Below are positions 49,129 to 63,193 of a DNA stretch of 64,000 bases, piece by piece. The position numbers and the translations under genes are program-made. Every line of letters begins with the position of its first letter. Position 1 is the stretch's first letter. The stretch is from NCBI RefSeq assembly GCF_038396675.1, contig NC_088920.1:27477001-27541000 (forward strand), read 5' to 3'. Under the pieces are notes generated by a model. That model did not search any database. It had not been told where the DNA came from and saw only the letters and a list, made by a program, of their open reading frames with translations. The stretch is from Hydra vulgaris (lineage: Eukaryota > Cnidaria > Hydrozoa > Anthoathecata > Hydridae).

Positions 49129-50779
49129 ATGGTTAGAAATAGAATTAAAAAAACAAATAAAGTTGCTATACCAAGTGAAACAATGAAAGTAGCTGTTAAT
49201 AAAGTTTTAGAAGGAACACAACTGAATGTTGTAGCACGTCAGTTTAACATAGATAGAATGACTTTAAAAAGATATTGTCGTAAAAAGAGGCTTAATCCAA
49301 ATGAAGCTTTCAAGCCTAACTACAACAATAGATAAGTTTTTACAGCAGAAGATGAAAAAAGTTTATCAAGTTATTTACTAATTGCATCAAAAATGAACTA
49401 TGGCCTTTCAACTAGGTCAACGCGATTATTGGCATATGAATTTGCTTTAAAAAACAATAAGATATGCCCATCATCATGGATCAAAAATAAAATTGCAGGC
49501 ATTGATTGGTTGCAAGGTTTTATGAAAAGACAACCAGAGTTGTCTCTACGAACACCTGAAGCAACGAGCTTCGCTCGATCAACAGCTTTTAACAAACACA
49601 CTGTAAGAGAGTTTTTTCAAAATCTTAAAACGGTAAGAAATCGATATAAATATAATCCTAACTGTATATATAATGTTGATGAAACTGGTTTAACAACCGT
49701 TCAAAAGCCGGTAAAGGTTTTAGCTGGTAGAGGAAGCAAACAAGTTGGAAGAATCACATCTGCAGAACGAGGAACATTGGTATCTGCATGTTGTGCCTCT
49801 AATGCTATTAGAAATTCCATTCCTCCATTATTTATTTTTCCTAGGGTAAAGTTTCATGATTACATGATTAAGGAAGGACCTCCTGGATGTGTGGGATTTG
49901 CAAATCCTTCTGGTTGGATGAACTCAGAAATTTTCATAGAATGGATTAAACATTTTGTTAAATATTCAAACTGTCCTCAGGAATCTCCAGTTTTGTTACT
50001 TCTCGACAGTCATGAAAGTCATATTTCTGTTAAAGGCTTGGAGCTTGCAATTCAACACGGAATTACAATGATAAGTTTTCCTCCCCATTGCAGCCATAAA
50101 TTGCAGCCATTAGATAGAACTGTTTTTGGACCATTGAAAAGGTTTTACAATTCTGCATGTGATAATTGGATGGTTGAAAACAATATCATAAATGGTCATT
50201 GAACCAATGACCATTTATGATATTGTTTCAATAGTTCGAGAACCGTATACAAAAGCTTTCTCACCATCTAATTTACAGACAGGATTTAGAGTAGCTGGCA
50301 TTGAGCCATTCAATTCTGAAATTTTCAAAGATGACGAATATTTACCATCATCAGTTACAGATAGAGCTGCTCCAGATACAGTTACTATCACTCCTGTCAA
50401 CAACATGGAATCTGAAATGATACCAGCACATGTTAATCACATAGAGTCTGAAATAACTATAGTAAATATTGAAACAAGTATTTTAAACAAAGTGTCAACA
50501 AGTGTTGCTTCTATAATCTCACCTGAGGTTTTAAAACCTTACCCAAAAGCATCTGCCAGAAAAAAAAATGTTAAAAGTAGGCAGTTAAAAGCAAGGATCT
50601 TGACTGATACTCCTGTCAGAAATGAAATTCGTTTGTCAAAAGAAAAGAAAATTTTGAAGCAAACCAAAAATCAACAAAAAGTCTCCACAAAAGATAAGAA
50701 AGAAACTAAGAATTACTTGCTTAGGAATAAAAAACAATGTAAACCAAAAGCTGCTTCACATCTTGACTTTCACAAATGA
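49129..50779 (+). pseudogene. Tigger/pogo-like transposase, broken by a stop and a palindrome
   Basis: Likely start ATG 49129 (VRNRIKKTNK). N-terminal HTH of the psq/CENP-B type (VARQFNIDRMTLKRYCRKK), then a second DNA-binding part ending GFMKRQPELSLRTPEATS. Then a DDE_1 catalytic core: YNVDETGLT (Asp 49678-80), LLLDSHESH (Asp 50005-07), LQPLDRTVFGPLK (Asp 50113-15), a DD35D spacing. GFRVAGIEPFNSEIF follows, then a lysine-rich tail. Lesions: an in-frame TAA at 49333-49335, apparently one base from a Gln codon, and a 24-nt-arm palindrome at 50178-50228 that shifts the frame before PMTIYDIVS. All three catalytic residues are present, but the gene cannot make a full protein. Confidence 0.9.
50178..50228. 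repeat. Perfect palindrome inside the transposon A gene
   Basis: Arms 50178-50201 and 50205-50228 (24 nt) with an AAC loop. The right arm encodes the conserved MTIYDIV; the left arm is its inverted copy and replaces native coding sequence. Confidence 0.95.
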
Positions 50780-51814: not shown

Positions 51815-52006
51815 TAGAGTAAAACCGGTCAAACCGTACGCTTATCAATAAAAATTAAAAAAACTTTTTTTTTTTTTTAACTTTTTTTTTTTATTAGATA
51901 GGTAATAAAAAACAACATAAGATAATATAAATATATGTTAAAAAAAAAATAAAGTTATTGAAAATGTTAAATGTAAAAATAAAAATAAAAATTGTGCGGT
52001 TTTAGG

Positions 52007-52011
52007 CGACA
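52007..52011. repeat. Target-site duplication of Transib, left
   Basis: CGACA directly before the heptamer CACAGTG. Identical to 55336-55340. A GC-rich 5-bp duplication is characteristic of Transib. Confidence 0.92.
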
Positions 52012-52050
52012 CACAGTGGGACGAAATCCCGATTTCGTGGCCAAAAGTCA
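52012..52050 (+). repeat. Transib left terminal repeat, RSS-like
   Basis: Heptamer CACAGTG, then 22 bp (GGACGAAATCCCGATTTCGT GG), then CCAAAAGTC, which matches 6 of 9 positions of the RSS nonamer ACAAAAACC. The heptamer equals the consensus RSS heptamer. Confidence 0.85.
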
Positions 52051-52119
52051 AATTTTTGTATTTTATATTTTCGTCTTTTTACGTTCAGATCTTGTTTACA
52101 GATAGTCCTAGAACAAAAT

Positions 52120-52170
52120 TCCGAACAGAGCAGGTATATACCTGCTCTAAGGTGGCCTGGGCGTCAGTTG
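52120..52170. repeat. Perfect 22-bp palindrome
   Basis: AGAGCAGGTATATACCTGCT CT with no loop, in the Transib 5' non-coding part. A second one, AATGCGTGGTGCGACATTAA with its inverse, lies at about 52557-52613. Confidence 0.8.
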
Positions 52171-52867
52171 ACATTTAGCCTCCGTTCGGTACGCACTAAA
52201 CAAGTGGACACGTCGAAAAATTCTTGCCTGTTTTAAAGTGCTGTTAAACTGAAGAAACTATATCAATTGGAATTCGGCAAAATGGTTTCACTTTCTTGAG
52301 GCATGTAGAATATATGATTATGCACTGTTATTGCTAATTTTAATTTTTTTCATATTTGAATCGCACGACAAGTAAACATAAAGAATTGTAAATTTTTTTA
52401 TCTGAAATCGATTTTCTAATGTCGTTTTAAAAATTTAACGGTGGTTATCCACCTTATTTTGACAAGGAACTGATCGTGTATAGTGTTAAATATAACATAT
52501 TAAAAAACTGGCTGCCATTGAGTGCCATTTTAATAATGAGACTAGTTTTTATCGAGGAATGCGTGGTGCGACATTAAACTATGTTAATAGATTAATGTCG
52601 CACCACGCATTAATGGTCATGGAAATTAGTGAATTAACATTATTTAATAGCACTAACTACATTTTAATGCAATAATTTTTTTTTTTAAATATATGCTTTA
52701 AAAGTTACTTCTCATTCCGTTTTATGATAATCTCAAATAGTCCTCAAAGAACTTTCAGCAGTTATTACTGTATTTTTTTTTACAGAGTCTTCCAAATCTT
52801 CAAATATGGAATTTTTAAGAAAAGATATATTCTTAATGGTGAAAGATAGTTTAAAAAATGAATATCT

Positions 52868-52953
52868 GTTATTTTGAAAATTGCATCTGTCAAAACATCA
52901 ATGATGAATAAATTCATCATTGATGTTTTGACAGATGCAATTTTCAAAATAAC
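52868..52953. repeat. Perfect palindrome at the start of the Transib gene
   Basis: Arms 52868-52909 and 52912-52953 (42 nt), loop AA. The right arm continues in frame into the conserved transposase (DVLTDAIFKIT); the left arm is its inverted copy and supplies the first ATG (52901). Confidence 0.95.
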
Positions 52954-54983
52954 GGAACATGTGATACAAGTAGGCGAGGATGAAATGTCATTATCACGGT
53001 TATTTTCAAATTTTCGATCGAGATGGAGAGCAGCAGGAAGATGGGAAGATTTTTTTTTGAAAAAAAATGAAGAGTGGTTGAAGGGCACCGTACAATTTTT
53101 AAAATTATCCAATACTGAATGCACAACAACTGAGAAGATTGTGAAGAGTGATAATAAAAAAGGAACATGTGGGCGACCTTCGCAATCCTTTGCTTCATCT
53201 AGTGAAAGATCAAAGAGGCGAAAGACTCAAAAAGTACGTTCTACTTTTTCTACAGAAGAATTGGCATATGCTGCTCAAATGAGTTTAAGAACTTCTGGTC
53301 AAGTACATGCTGCTCAAGTTGTTAAAGATGTCACATTAACAACCCCAACAAGAGCCTCAAAATATATATCCGCTGTTAGTTCACAAAATGAAGTACCTTT
53401 AACCCCAGATGAAGCACTTTCTTTAATGATTGAGAAAGGAGAATCAAAGCACTCTTATCAACTATCAAGAAATGTAGCTAGAGCACATAAATGCAAATTA
53501 TATCCATCATACCTTGAAGTAGAAAAAGAAAAAAAACGTTGTTATCCATCAGTTGTGTACACAACTGTTAGTGAGTCGTGCGCACAGATTGAACTACAGG
53601 CATTACTTGATCATACCACATCTAGAATTATACAACTTCAGGCTGATGTCATTGATACTCTAAATCCGGAAATTCTGCAAAAATTAGTACTTTACTGTAA
53701 ATGGGGATGTGATGGAAGCAGCGGTCAAAGTGTTTATAAACAAAAACTTACTGAGACTGGAAAATCTGATGAAAGCATTTTTTATACTTCTCTTGTACCT
53801 TTACAATTAATACACAACAACCACGAGATGGGTGAAGCAACTATTGTGTGGAAAAATTCTAGACCATCATCTCCGCGATTCTGCAGACCAATACGACTGC
53901 AGTTTGTACATGAAGATGTACAGTCAACATTGAAAAAAGGTACCGACATTGAACTGCAGATTGAGGGTCTTGCACCATATGCTAATGAACCAAAATGAAA
54001 AATCCATTTCAGTAACTTATTGTATGTCATTTATAATGATAGACGGTAAAGTCTGTAATGCAGTAACTGGTACCACTTCTACACAACGCTGCTTCCTGTA
54101 CAAAGCTTCCTCTAAAGAATTTAATGACATCAACAACATTATAAAAATGGACATTACAACAGATAATTTAAGATTAGGCGTATCTACATTGCATGCATGG
54201 ATTCGTTTTTTCGAGTGCTGTTTGCATCTGTCGTATAAGCTAACAACTGAAAAGTGGCAAGCTCGTCGAAAGGAAGATAAAAAGAATGTGAAAATACGTA
54301 AGGAAGAAATACAGACTCAATTTAGGATAAAACTGGGGCTTATCGTTGATCGACCAAAGCCAGGATATGGAAACTCTAACGATGGAAATACAGCGCGCCG
54401 CTTTTTTCAAAATGCTGCTATATCTGCTAAAATAAAAGGAGTCGATGAAAAATTAATTCACCGATTTTATGTTATTTTGCAGGTAATTTCGAGCGGGTTT
54501 GATATAGATGATAAAAAATTCAAAGACTATTGTGTAAATACCGCCCATTTATTTGTTGCTTTATATCTGTGGTATTACATGCCTACATCTGTACATAAAT
54601 TGCTGATCCATGGAGCAGAAATTGTAAAGTATGTCCTTTTACCGATTGGACAACTTTCTGAAGATGCCCAATAGTCACGCAATAAGGACATTAAAAACTT
54701 CAGATTACATCATTCAAGAAAATGCTCAAGAGAATCGAATATGAGAAACATTTTTAATAGGCTCTTATTAACATCAGATCCATTTCGCTCGAGCATCAGG
54801 AAATTGCCCCAGAGACCGGTAAAATCTCTACATCAAGAAGCTATACAATTGTTAAAACAACCTGAAGTCACCAGACAAGAGACAAGGAACGATTTCGATT
54901 TAGATACAAGTGGTTCAACATCAGATTCCAAATCGAATGATTCGAACATTGATGAATATGACATACTTGATTTTTGTTACTAG
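52874..54983 (+). pseudogene. Transib (RAG1-core-like) transposase, broken
   Basis: Three frame pieces form one protein of about 700 codons. Cut-and-paste transposase; by family it nicks next to CAC and forms hairpins. Correspondence with mouse RAG1: Asp600 in KWGCDGSSGQ (53711-13); Asp708 in MIDGKVCN (54042-44), 16 residues before a Cys (RAG1: 19 before Cys727); zinc His pair in VHKLLIHGAEI (54594-96, 54609-11), same spacing as His937/His942; the Asn-rich GNSNDGNTARRFF block. The second zinc Cys is Tyr (54099-54101). The Glu962 position, before SRNK, is a TAG stop (54672-74). A one-base frameshift near 53985-53995 separates pieces one and two. The remaining tail (RNIFNRLLLTSDPFRSS) stays in frame after the TAG. 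Non-functional as it stands. Confidence 0.88.
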
Positions 54984-55295
54984 GATTAAAGAAACAATTT
55001 TTTTACATATATGTGAGTTAATCTTTTACCAATTTAAAAAAAATAAATAAAATTAAAATTACAAATTTCTGTTTTTTTATTAATAGTATAAATTTGAAAA
55101 TAGTTTTGCAATGTTTTTGCTCTAATTTAACTCCTGAATCATTAGCAATGACCTTGAAAACCAAACTACATGAGATTTTATATTTTCAACGTATGAACAG
55201 TTTTGGCCGCCATATTGGAGCCGCCATTCTGAACTTTTTAAATCTGATTTGAGATTCCTAATCAGCGACCTCGAAAACCCATATGTAGGTTATTT

Positions 55296-55335
55296 GGGAA
55301 TTTTGGCCACAAAATCAGGATTTCGTCCAACTGTG
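55296..55335 (-). repeat. Transib right terminal repeat, RSS-like
   Basis: Read inward on the minus strand: CACAGTT, 22 bp (GGACGAAATCCTGATTTTGT GG), then CCAAAATTC. Same layout as the left end. Confidence 0.85.
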
Positions 55336-55340
55336 CGACA
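55336..55340. repeat. Target-site duplication of Transib, right
   Basis: CGACA, identical to 52007-52011. Confidence 0.92.
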
Positions 55341-55419
55341 TTCTGATAAAACCGCACAGTTAAGAAAATATTAAAATTTCTAAATTTTAATTTTTTTTTA
55401 TTACTTTTTTAAACACAAC

Positions 55420-57478
55420 TTATATTTGGGAAACTATATAAAAGTTTTTACATCTTTTGCAAGAAAAAAAATTAGTTCCAACAACATATTTCTTTGGTAA
55501 ACATGTTTCTTTGCTCAACCATTCCCGACACATCGAATTTTCGCATTGCAACATTTCTATGTGTAACTGTACTCTACACTTTTTACATTTTGCAACTTTT
55601 AATCGTTTGGCTGCTGGTACTTGTTCTTCATTTCTATTTTGCTGAGGTTGCTCAGCATTTTTTATGCTCAGGCATTTGAGTACTTGGCATAGAGAGTCTA
55701 CGCTTTGCGTTAAGTTTAGCAACTTTCACGGCTTCCTTTTTTGCTTTTTCTTTATTTTTTTGTTTGAGGAACTCGATCATATTTTCTTCAGTAATACATT
55801 TTCCGCCAAGTTTTGACATGTTACACTGCATCGATATCTTTACATGCGATTGATTTCTTGCTTGAAAAAACTGCTTCAATTCTATCTCGATACTGTTTTT
55901 GCAACACTCTACATATGCTTGATACCTATCAAAACTTTTTATTTTTAGGTTATTTAGGTCCCAGAAGTCCTTTCGGTCTTATCACGGAGCACCGCAGAAG
56001 AGGATTTAACTAGAAGTTCATGCCTCTTTCCTTACCAATGTCGCTTATTGAACTAGAGCTGGCGTCGGACCTCTGGGCCTCGGACCTCTGGGTTCTGAGT
56101 CAGAACTCTAACCACTGCGCCACGGCTGCTCAAAACTTGAAGCTGGTGTAGTTGAGAAAGATGGTAATTGGTGTGTAGTTGGAGCAGGTGATGCGGCGGC
56201 TGTTGAAGATGATGAAGCTGTATCTAAGCAAGATGGTTTAGGTGCTGTGGAGGTTGCTAAAGTTGGTGAAGATAGATTAAACGTTTGTGTGATTGCTAAC
56301 GCCTTATGATTTATGTTGTTTTTATTAAGTGGAAATATACCATTGTACTAGAAACTTGCGATTCCATGCAAGCGTGTAAAACAGTTACCACTCTCGTATA
56401 GCAATTTGAGCAACGGTGGAAAATTTTGTTTATCTAAATTCTTACATTTTGAGTCTTTGTAATACTTTGTAAGAATTTTTTTCCATGCTTGTTTGACATG
56501 ACAATAGACACATCTCTCCAATGGTTGTAGAATATGTGAAGAATGCTCTGGTAAACAAATCAAGATTATATTGTGTTTTTTGCACAGCAATACAGCTTCC
56601 AAAGCTTTGTGAGTTGTATGCCCATCTAATACTAAAATATGAATACCACCAATTTGCTCAGTTTCGGGCATAAATACTTCTTTCAGCCATTCAATAAGTA
56701 CGATATGTTCGTGCTCCATCCAACCTGATTTTGAAATTGAATATTTGGTGCCAACGGGACCACTTCTTGCCCAGTTAGGACAAAAGCTTCTTTTGGTTTT
56801 GTATATTACAAATGGGAGTGCAAAATGCCCATCTGCTTTCCAGCAATTGTATACAGTATAATGAATTTTTTCATTGTTGCCAGTAAGTTTATACGCACGT
56901 CTTGTCCCTTTTCGACACACTACGGTTGCTTTGCCTTGATCACCCGAAAAACCTGTTTCATCACAATTCCAAATATGCGAACCAGAAGTTATACTAGTCT
57001 GGTAATATTGCTTGGCGACGCATTCAAAATAACAATCAATTATTTCTGGCGTACAAGAAGCGGCTCTTTTAGATGCTAATTTATCCGCTTTTCTTGTTGA
57101 AATTTCTTTTGACCATCGTTTCATCAAGGCATAAAACCAGTCTTTACCAGACTTGCCATTTTTGAATAAGTGCAATTAATCTTTGCGTTTAAGGTAGCCT
57201 CATACAAATTCTAGGATTTCATTTCGGATTAAACCATAACCCCAGCCAGCAAGTAATTGGAACGCATGCACCATCAATCTTACTGTTTCATTTGAGAGTA
57301 CCGTTGTTGTACCTGAGCCATGGAAGCCTTTGTTGTTGTTATTTTTGCGATCTTTGAGCGTTGAGACTAGAACGCCATGTTTGAATGCAGCTTTTCTCAG
57401 TGATATTTTATTTTCTTTCATAGTTAATGCAGCTAGTATATCATCTTCATTGTATGCTTTTGTTTTTTTAGTTGACAT
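55420..57478 (-). pseudogene. Transposon B transposase with C-terminal zinc finger, broken
   Basis: Start at 57478 (STKKTKAYNEDDILAALTMK). HTH of psq type (SLRKAAFKHGVLVSTLKDRK), then WFYALMKRWSKEIS, then the DDE_1 core: WNCDETGFSGDQG (Asp 56962-60), LVLDGHTTH (Asp 56626-24), and LQPLERCVYCHVK (56518-16), where the third acid is Glu instead of the usual Asp, 36 codons after the second. Then GIFPLNKNNI, a Ser/Thr/Ala/Pro-rich linker, a lysine-rich segment, and a PHD-like cysteine cluster (CKKC, C-8-C, W, C, FFSCKRC). Lesions: stops TGA 57202-00, TAA 57178-76 and TAG 56350-48, a SINE at 55938-56129, and a frameshift between 55652 and 55722. Dead copy, but domain order is clear. Confidence 0.85.
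55938..56129 (-). mobile_element. tRNA-derived SINE, family b, with target duplication
   Basis: From 56129 downward: GCAGCCGTGGCGCAGTGGTT AGAG (A box), then CAGAGGTCCGACGCC (B box region). A short duplication (CAGAGGTCCGA repeated) sits inside the head. An A-rich tail ends it. TCAAAACTT flanks both sides (55929-37, 56130-38), as made by LINE machinery. It interrupts the transposon B transposase. Confidence 0.92.
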
Positions 57479-58049
57479 GTTAAAGTGAGTGAGTTAAATT
57501 GAATTGAGTGAGTGATGATTATATTGAGAAATAATATGATAATTGGTTTTTAATGAGTAAGTGTTTATTAAATTAACAAGTAACATTATACTTCATTCAT
57601 AATTAAACCGGAATTAACATTAATTTAATTAGATAAATATAGGCGCTTAGCCACTTGCTAAAAACTAAACCAAGTAATTAAACGAGTTTTATCAGTTTTT
57701 TTTACTCTTTTAATTTTTTACTTAACTTTTTGTTCTAGCTGCATAAAAATTTTACTATCGAAATTAAAATTAAATTTCCAACAAGATAGTGTTAAAATTA
57801 TTTTTTTATCAGTTTCGGTTCAAGCGCTACTTTATACTAAAAATTTTTGACTCCCTGTTAAAGTTGTATAAAAAAAGAAAAAAATGGAGTTGAATCGGCA
57901 TATCATTTTATCAATTCGAATAGAGGAGAGAGTTCTGTATTTGAATCTATTTTCATTTTTTTCATAACCATATCCGTTTAGTTTTTATTTGATAATTTCG
58001 ATCAGTGTGTGGAATGATATGGTGTGCGGTTTGACCCGGTTTTACTCTA

Positions 58050-60552: not shown

Positions 60553-63193
60553 GGGGCCCTTAAGGTGAGATGGGCCCCTTTCAAATCTCTTGCTTGGACA
60601 ATAATTGTTATAAATTTAACTGTACTTTTGAAATTTTTTTGAGCTAAATATTTTTTACTATAATCGTAAAAAACACTTATGTTTATATATCTCTATATAT
60701 TGTAATTATATTAAATATAATTATAATATATAGAGAGTTATATATAGTTACAAAAAAGTTTTAATGTAAAATGTACACCCTTTTATAGTTTCATTGAATT
60801 GGACTGATTTTATAAGCTTTTTTTCTATCAATTCCTCTTGTTTTAGATATGGAGAAATATGTTAGAAAAACAAAAAGGCAGTGTTGGAGTGAGAGGTCTA
60901 TGTCATCAGCTATTGAGGCTGTAAGAAAGAAAGAAATGGGATTAAAAAAAGCATGCAAGCAGTTCAATGTACCATGGAGTACTTTGCAAAGAAGGTGTAG
61001 ACTTAATTTGAACTTTGTACAAGCCTCGTTGAAATCACTTGGATCAGTAAAATGTGTGTTTTCTATTGAAATGGAAAATGAACTGGTGACTCATATCAAG
61101 CAAATGGAAGCTATGCTTTTTGGTTTAACACCTCAAGTTTTGGGTAAAGTTGCCTACCAGTTTGCTAAACTTAACAATCTTCATAAAAGGTTCAGTTCAA
61201 AAAGTGAACAAGCTGGTGCTAATTGGTTTCATAGATTTTTGATTCGACACCCTCAATTATCTGTAAGAACACCCGAGCCAACTTCTGCAGCAAGAGCACA
61301 GGGCTTTAATCAAGCCAGTGTCGGAAAGTTTTTTGATTTATTGCAAGCATTGCAGGAAAAGCATCACTTTTTTCCAGATCGTGTTTATAATGTTGATGAA
61401 ACAAGCATTACTACTGTTCCAAATAAGCCATCAAAAGTGGTTGCTATTCGTGGAAAGAAACAGGTTGGATGCCTAACTTCTGCTGAGCATGGGCAGTTGG
61501 TTACAGTGGAAATCTGCATGAGTGCCTCAGTCAATTTTGTGCCACCTCTTTTTGTTTTTCCAAGAGTTCACATGAAATCTGAACTAATGGATGCTGCACC
61601 GCCCAGTTCAATTGCTGTTTGTCACCCATCAGGTTGGATGCAAAGTGATATATTTGTTACTTGGTTCATGCACTTTGTAAAGCATGCTAACCAAACAGAG
61701 CATGAACCTGTTTTGCTAATATTAGATGGGCATAAAACTAATACTTCAAATCTAAAAGTAATTAATCTAACTCGTCAAAATAACGTTGTTTTATTGTCTT
61801 CCACCACATTGTAGCTATAGACTTCAACCTTTAGATGTAGCTTTTATGAAGCCTTTAATGACTTATTATGCACAAGAGGTTGAAAATTGGCTGAGAAATC
61901 ATCCTGGACGATTTGTAACAACTTATCAAATAGCCAAACTGTTTAAAAATAGCTATTTGCGAGCAGCATCTGCTATCACTGCTGTTAATGGTTTTGTTAA
62001 GACTGGCATTTTCCCGATAAATCGAAATGTTTTTACAGACAATGATTTTGCCTCAGCACTTTCAACTGATATTTCTCTGCAGCTGCTCAATAAAAAAATA
62101 ACGTTAGAAGATGTTTCTGGTCAAACATTGATCTCGCCACAGCAGATTCTAGACATTGCTCAAAATGAGGATCTGCTCATTGAGCTTCAGGCCTCAAAAG
62201 TTGTAACGCCAGTTGTTAATCAAGTTCTGACACAAAGTCTCAACTTTTTAGAGCCAGTTGTTCCACCAACAGTATCAAATAAAAACCACTATTTTCCCTT
62301 GACAAAAGTTTCTCCTATTCCAAAGATTATTACTCCTCGAAAAAAAAATCATCAGCACAAGGGTTTACTGCTGTTTTGACAAGCAGTCCATACAAATATG
62401 ATTCGGAAGAAAAGCAAAATATAAAGACAATAAAAATGTTATTAAAAGAAAACCGAAAGTTATTAACAGAAATCAAAAGAGCAAAAGAAAAAAAAAATTA
62501 CGAAAGCCAAAAAAAGACCACACTTCATCAAAGAAACTGATAAAAATAAAAAACCCAATAAAAAAAGCAGTGTTATGTGCTAAAGAATTGAACAATAAAG
62601 ATAACTAATCTTTACCGCTATAAGTAATAAATAAAACTGAGGTTTCATTTTTTTAAATATATTTGAAAAGACCACTTTTAAATTTTGTTGAGCTAAATAT
62701 TGTATTTATGTTTATTGCAATTATAAAAAGCACTTATGTTTATTATGTTTTTTGATATTTTTCAAAATTAAACATATTATCTTTTAATTTGCACAAGATT
62801 AGTTCGAGAGTTGTCACTTCAATTTAGGCACATTGTACATTCTGCCTCAGTTGAGTTTACTCAGAGTCTCAAATTTTAATGTGAACAATGAACAGAAGAT
62901 TATGTACCATCAATAAATTACAGTCAATTTTTGTTTAATAATTAGGTTTTATTCAGAAATTAAATAAGGGGCCCATTTTAGGCTACCTCAAGGGTGAAAC
63001 GGGCCCCTAGCATCTCTTTGTTCAACGGTTATTTCCTAATGAAAGGCATAGCCACACCTTTATTTTTTTGATGTTAAATTGTAGAGCATAGATTGACTTT
63101 CCTGAAAAATACTTTGTTTGTAATTTTCGGTTGGTTATAGATAGCTGATTCTATCATTTTTTGAAAAGGAGCCCGTTTTTGGTCACTCTCCCC
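60553..63193 (+). mobile_element. Tigger/pogo-like DNA transposon C, 2.64 kb
   Basis: Left end GGGGCCCTTAAGGTGAGATG GGCCCC then TTTCAAA. The right end read inward is GGGGAGAGTGACCAAAAACG GGCTCC then TTTTCAAA. TA flanks both (60551-52, 63194-95). The terminal pairs agree at the tip and at GGGC(C/T)CC, but diverge between. A further internal copy of the end (GGGGCCCATTTTAGGCTACC ... ACGGGCCCCTA) lies at 62968-63018. Confidence 0.8.
60849..62600 (+). pseudogene. Transposon C transposase (Tigger/pogo-like), two frameshifts
   Basis: Start ATG 60849. Psq-type HTH (LKKACKQFNVPWSTLQRRCR), CENP-B-like second part (WFHRFLIRHPQLSVRTPEPT), then the DDE_1 core: YNVDETSIT (Asp 61395-97), LILDGHKTN (Asp 61725-27), LQPLDVAFMKPL (Asp 61834-36). 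The last two are 109 nt apart instead of the 108 expected for DD35D, so one extra base near 61786-61800 breaks the frame. GFVKTGIFPINRNVF follows. A second frameshift in the A run at about 62341-62348 separates the tail, which continues with TSSPYKYDSEEKQN and a lysine-rich stretch. About half as damaged as copies A and B; all three Asp remain. Confidence 0.9.

Follow-up and report, generated by a model that had tools for sequence, protein, structure and literature searches.

The 64,000-nucleotide stretch of the Hydra vulgaris genome analysed here (assembly GCF_038396675.1, contig NC_088920.1, positions 27,477,001 to 27,541,000; hereafter the window) carries a 3324 bp Transib element at 52012-55335, whose ends resemble the recombination signal sequences (RSSs) of V(D)J recombination. 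We propose with considerable confidence that this copy stems from a burst, since decayed, of a Transib family with symmetric 22/22 ends (a 22-bp spacer at both), that it moved by cut-and-paste into a CGACA site within an older pogo-like element, and that the family's transposase, a homolog of RAG1, recognised bipartite ends. The ends, duplications, target preference, genomic family and lesions, as well as the reappearance of the two-part layout in families whose spacers differ, could be followed directly. The boundaries of the element are formed by the following features (papers are cited throughout by PMC accession).

52007..52011, no strand: target site duplication CGACA, left
52012..52049, + strand: left terminal repeat, with heptamer CACAGTG (52012-52018), a spacer of 22 bp (52019-52040) and the A-rich block CCAAAAGTC (52041-52049)
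55298..55335, - strand: right terminal repeat, with heptamer CACAGTT (55329-55335), a spacer of 22 bp (55307-55328) and the A-rich block CCAAAATTC (55298-55306)
55336..55340, no strand: target site duplication CGACA, right

The inverted ends measure 38 bp each and pair at 34 of 38 positions (89%). An earlier sequence-only reading of this DNA had noticed the heptamer and A-rich block at both ends, and this pair of ends recurs at the borders of 63 two-ended copies in the genome. It had also given the gap as 22-23 bp; the gap is present at both ends, its size being exactly 22 bp, so the range does not hold. Its match to the 23-RSS class is a loose one: 22/22 spacing is ordinary among symmetric Transibs, whose spacers are 20-22 bp (PMC8355894, figure legend). 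A V(D)J RSS pair consists of one 12- and one 23-bp spacer, and the window Transib, spaced 22/22, has no such pair.

The genome searched comprised 911,502,276 bases in 15 contigs. A DNA search with the element, in which 40 of 192 candidates were scored, gave 22 copies of approximately full length, i.e. the window copy and 21 others matching at 92-94%. The 22 aligned copies lie about 1.3-3.1% from their majority, two copies on C14 being identical. Patterns of the ends found 76 left and 95 right ends, forming 61 facing pairs within 10 kb, all of them left-right and spanning 1987-8012 bp, with 49 ends unpaired. Two full-length copies, each with one end missed by the pattern, were added by hand and L008 was excluded for its damaged end, which resulted in the set of 63 copies. 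The sequence-only reading had made its boundaries depend on where other copies end; the 63 copies compared have the same ends. CACAGTG is the left heptamer in 52 and the right heptamer in 53 of them (105 of the family's 126 ends); CACAGTT as the right heptamer occurs once in the 63, in the window copy alone, and is a mutation of that copy itself. Small non-autonomous derivatives of the family were considered and rejected, the shortest of the 61 pattern-paired copies being 1987 bp (more diverged ends would escape the pattern).

The 5-bp duplication reported earlier as CGACA stands at both flanks of the window element, and in the 63 copies, window included, such a duplication is perfect in 47, has one mismatch in nine and two or more in seven. 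As a control, when the left flank of one copy was paired with the right flank of another, 7.1% of 3906 such pairings gave a perfect match, and a 6-bp flank match was found in none of the 63 copies by the same test. The duplications exceed what chance would give. Against the reading as an insertion by cut-and-paste counts the lack of a perfect duplication in 16 of the 63 copies, and three copies, those on C14, share flanks, so that not all copies are independent. The perfect duplications read CGNCG in 26 cases, one letter off in 16 and further away in five; CGNCG is the described Transib target (PMC4735498, PMC5704228). Around the duplications of the same 47 copies there is a mild palindromic preference, with A before and T after, and T directly before the duplication in 0 of 47.

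Individual copies record further events. The three C14 copies (C14:29995126, 30006647 and 30164336) have common flanks, two being identical and in opposite orientation, and probably represent a segmental duplication, judging by these flanks. C6:56512627-56515915 and C6:57023393-57026651 share 15 left-flank bases (TTTTTTGCAGCGATG); since the duplications of the first do not match as well, this is a sign of recombination between copies. At L031:189-201 a window-family copy sits in CGACG beside the heptamer of another Transib, of a family with 24-bp spacers; the insertion site is probably the target duplication of that other Transib.

The element contains a single broken transposase gene. Its frame pieces 52877-53998 and 53949-54671 match, in sequence order, the Transib transposase of PDB 6pqn (5e-34 and 5e-55, respectively), which we take to be HzTransib from Helicoverpa zea, and the window copy is 46% identical to HzTransib over a 220-amino-acid stretch. 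This name agrees with PMC11844651. The catalytic residues of HzTransib are D126, D225 and E436 (PMC6941560); the offset of 17 between these numbers and the PDB chain is our own and fits both Asp residues. The gene, its catalytic codons and the lesions of the window copy are as follows.

52806..54983, + strand: broken Transib transposase gene, family frame from ATG at 52806 to the stop at 54981-54983, 710 amino acids in the majority of the 22 copies
52865..52956, no strand: palindrome with 45-nt arms, a 44-bp inverted duplication private to the window copy (1 of 22) that breaks the frame
53711..53713, + strand: first catalytic Asp codon (WGCDG; HzTransib D126)
53990..53991, + strand: 1-bp insertion shifting the frame, private to the window copy (1 of 22)
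54042..54044, + strand: second catalytic Asp codon (MIDGK; HzTransib D225)
54672..54674, + strand: premature stop TAG where the family frame has its third catalytic residue, a Glu at position 608 that aligns with HzTransib E436

The three lesions (44-bp inverted duplication, 1-bp insertion and TAG) are absent from the other 21 full-length copies, and with a stop at the very codon of the catalytic Glu the element cannot be called well preserved, as it had been. The intact copies that were to be looked for did not appear either: all 22 full-length copies carry at least one stop or frameshift in the 710-amino-acid frame, this check covering the full-length ones among the two-ended copies. Substitutions at codon positions 1, 2 and 3 number 373, 360 and 297 in the 22 copies, with no excess at the third position, a spread as expected of neutral decay.

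A profile built from the window piece and three further Transib families of the same genome hits 6pqn with an E-value of 6e-168 and RAG1L (PDB 6b40) with 3e-8, while its hits to vertebrate RAG1 begin at 4e-6, in agreement with the kinship of Transib to RAG1 invoked by the sequence-only reading; the RAG1 family PF12940 itself gives 24 weak matches in the genome, the best at 4e-6. The DDE core and CAC ends are common to Transib and to the RAG1-like (RAGL) elements, and the element might on these grounds be assigned to the latter. We regard this as extremely unlikely, given the distance between 6e-168 for HzTransib and 3e-8 for RAG1L, and given that the DNA beyond the transposase gene amounts to 1146 bp only, where no further frame of at least 120 amino acids was found as a RAG2-like second gene (shorter frames lay outside the search); the pair of RAG1L and RAG2L genes is thus not present. 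The assignment to Transib stands on the HzTransib-like transposase, the 5-bp duplications of CGNCG type and the CAC ends.

The RSS nonamer consensus is ACAAAAACC. The best match to it has 6 of 9 letters with a spacer of 22 at both window ends; 2.7% of the window 9-mers reach 6, and the base composition of the window is 73% AT. The A-rich blocks of the two ends are one observation and not two independent ones, since each end repeats the other in inverted form. An A-rich block could accordingly be no more than a part of ordinary family-specific terminal repeats, its likeness to the nonamer being chance in A-rich DNA, and the evidence on this point comes from the other Transib families of the same genome. 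L096 (716-amino-acid open frame) and L097 (670 amino acids) match 6pqn at 6e-116 and 3e-105, respectively; L098 (531 amino acids) was found with an HzTransib fragment, in a genome search where 150 matches were scored out of 5480 candidates, and aligns with L096 and L097. Over the window's second frame piece the Hydra Transib families share 48-50% identity among themselves. L096 ends in CACAAAG and TACAGTG with a spacer of 24 and ACAAAA; L097, of which one end was read, has CACAGTG, a spacer of 22 and ACAAAA; L098 has CACGTAG at both ends, a spacer of 23 and CCAAAA, within a CGCCA/CGCCG duplication. The spacer sequences of all three are unlike those of the window element, so that the RSS-like layout noticed at first in one element recurs with differing spacers in other families.

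Genome-wide, CACAGTG-N(5 to 35)-GG[AC]CAAAA has 2647 matches as opposed to 42 for reversed-pattern controls; 939 (controls, 16) have an N of 5-16, equal to a spacer of 7-18 counted to [AC]CAAAA, leaving about 1708 long ones. These sites are copies and hence not independent, and the motif was taken from families already seen, other A-rich blocks or mutated heptamers escaping it. The first 100 matches listed (C1 to 26.6 Mb) have spacers of 10 (1 match), 12 (2), 13 (36), 15 (1), 22 (44), 23 (10) and 24 (6), and by spacer sequence they fall into six short clusters and 10-12 long ones, the long ones staying at 22-24. The first 100 short matches listed (C1, then C2 up to 5.7 Mb) have spacers of 10 (1), 11 (2), 12 (5), 13 (90), 15 (1) and 16 (1). 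A chance likeness is difficult to reconcile with [AC]CAAAA standing 22-24 bp off the heptamer in 10-12 clusters of differing spacers and 10-15 bp off in six, with none at 16-21 bp, among the first 100 matches listed, or with the ratio of 2647 signals to 42 controls; we consider it improbable. Some details do not fit the bipartite layout as well: one spacer of 16 is present among the first 100 short matches listed, the right heptamer of L096 is damaged (TACAGTG) and its duplication is not evident, and the duplication of L098 has one mismatch.

On the bipartite reading, the family transposase, with its DDE core homologous to RAG1, would read each end as a two-part signal, with the CAC heptamer as cut site and the A-rich block about two helical turns inward. 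As in HzTransib and RAG, a transposase dimer would bind two such ends; cutting at the CAC edge would leave hairpins on the flanks, as shown for HzTransib on excision (PMC6941560), and the ends would be joined with a 5-bp stagger in CGNCG. The A-rich block is probably bound by an NBD-like N-terminal domain, for which the window offers one candidate.

53171..53350, + strand: approximate NBD-like stretch, with GRP at 53171-53179, a basic run and then EL..AA, weakly RAG1-NBD-like

An NBD equivalent with GRP is described in both Transib subgroups (PMC9435367). The match is weak: in 1000 shuffles its score was reached once for the window, 74 times for L096 and 675 times for L097; the region gave no BLASTP alignment, and its profile retrieved nothing from the PDB up to E 10. 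An N-terminal fold model from one sequence was unusable (pLDDT 49.7).

Besides the symmetric families, the Hydra genome seems, from the arrangement of its signals, to hold a young, abundant, RAG2-free Transib with 12/23-like ends (13/22). Among the first 100 matches listed there are 28 facing pairs within 8 kb, 26 of them 13/22 and two 24/24, so that 26 of the 40 short signals in this list have an exact 22-spaced partner; the 13/22 pairs are 1290-3620 bp long, and 18 of them measure 3.2-3.4 kb. With the L097 gene as query, the best 40 of 1124 candidates, counting L097 itself, show 99-100% identity across 2001-2010 bp of that gene, a top-scoring slice that does not give the spread of the whole group. 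The L097-gene copy C1:5251454-5253463 lies inside a listed short-long pair. In all three L097-gene copies within the listed stretches (one on C1, two on C2) a 13-spaced end is located 865-868 bp upstream, and a 22-spaced end follows 483 bp downstream in both L097 and the C1 copy, which places the transposase gene between a short and a long signal.

It may be that the transposase of this group requires a short signal together with a long one, amounting to a 12/23-type pairing rule in a non-bilaterian, without RAG2; we put this forward tentatively. The asymmetry could also be a peculiarity that a single successful group inherited after about 9 bp were lost from one end, with ends pairing freely and no 12/23-like rule, an account to which we give about an even chance. 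Spacer 13 makes up 90 of the first 100 short matches listed, most of them closely related where the letters are shown, and symmetric 22/22 and 24/24 families have moved in the same genome, both as a quirk would have it. Short spacers of other sequence do exist (GTCGAAATGGTGG, GAATGTAGGGTGG and CGCCAGTTGTGG), insects also have 12/23-like Transibs (PMC8355894), and 26 of the 28 listed facing pairs are short-long and none short-short, as a pairing rule would have it. A facing 13/13 pair at C1:26877590-26877905, 316 bp apart, found among the first 100 short matches listed, tells against the rule and in favour of free pairing; because of it our estimate for the rule, below even from the start, was lowered slightly. 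The pair is possibly a small symmetric (13/13) non-autonomous element. In these 100 short matches 13/13 pairing is rare, though present. The symmetric 22/22 pair does not reproduce the 12/23 rule, whereas the asymmetric Hydra relatives approach it.

The remaining features of the window concern the DNA into which the Transib was inserted, probably a pogo/Tigger-like DDE_1 element, and a hairpin of the Transib family itself.

51817..58047, no strand: host of the insertion, pogo/Tigger-like DDE_1 element (probable), 2902 bp once the Transib and one duplication are subtracted
56348-57175, - strand: DDE_1 frame within the host element
52558..52611, no strand: hairpin with 25-nt arms, at the same place in the 22 aligned full-length copies (loop deleted in L022, 3' part rearranged in L005)

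The host element has the terminal repeats GAGTAAAACCGG(G)TCAAACCG, with TA directly outside. The Transib entered the 13-bp centre of a target palindrome with 15-bp arms; this flanking palindrome (51990-52004/55347-55361) was rejected as a part of the Transib, since it lies outside the duplication and belongs to the target. Pogo-like transposase genes of the DDE_1 type are also found at 49393-50779 (+) and 60849-62379 (+); both are divided between two frames, the second gene carrying an HTH_psq domain. Inverted duplications arose at small palindromes in the window copy (52865-52956) and separately in the L005 hairpin (element approximately 547-600), and both look like template-switch mutations. 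The 45-nt palindrome at 52865-52956 was dismissed as a functional part, being a private duplication that the other 21 full-length copies are without. Rfam gave nothing at gathering threshold, and a Pfam hit to IL23 on the C-terminal frame piece, under its cut-off, was taken as chance.

What the sequence-only reading observed is, overall, confirmed, and its interpretation is partly supported: the window element is dead, of a kind already known and ordinary in itself, while the 13/22 group is noteworthy for being abundant and young. The interest lies in the origin of the 12/23 rule: symmetric 22/22 and 24/24 families coexist with the 13/22 group in the Hydra genome, and with symmetric and asymmetric Transibs in one host, which can be cultured and is open to transgenesis, spacer rules could be compared directly; if the tentative reading is true, a 12/23-type pairing rule operates in a non-bilaterian transposon without RAG2. 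A search by titles and the starts of abstracts, supplements lying outside it, found no literature on the spacers of Hydra Transibs; Figure 1g of PMC9435367, an alignment of Transib ends, may include one. The same paper reports both symmetric and asymmetric ends in Transib Subgroup II and includes Hydra vulgaris in its tree. CMC-Transib is one of 14 putatively active transposable element families enriched in H. vulgaris AEP; 11 of the 14 rank within the top 20% by expression, and CMC-Transib is not one of them (PMC12220107). It very probably includes the elements described here; the excerpted account in PMC12220107 describes neither ends nor spacers. For animal genomes in general, a single autonomous Transib copy, or a few at the most, is described as typical (PMC4411706), as against the 150 matches scored here with the HzTransib fragment.

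That Transib ends resemble RSSs is a finding attributed to Kapitonov and Jurka 2005 (via PMC8355894 and PMC6941560). HzTransib (PDB 6pqn, 6pqr, 6pqu, 6pqx, 6pqy and 6pr5) resembles the window element in core register, DDE positions and its single gene, while the window family is cnidarian and broken in the 22 copies checked. The insect 12/23-like Transibs, i.e. Transib 5 of D. melanogaster and Transib 2 and N1-N3 of Anopheles gambiae (PMC8355894, citing Kapitonov and Jurka 2005), have the heptamer and A-rich block in common with the window family, and the combination of a short and a long spacer in common with the Hydra 13/22 relatives; they differ from the former, which is symmetric 22/22, and from the latter, a high-copy group with best-scoring copies 99% identical. 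With vertebrate RSSs and RAG1 the Hydra elements share CACAGTG and the DDE core, and the Hydra relatives also the ACAAAA nonamer start, whereas the Hydra spacers are 13/22 or 22/22 and not 12/23, there is no RAG2, and the process is transposition and not V(D)J joining.

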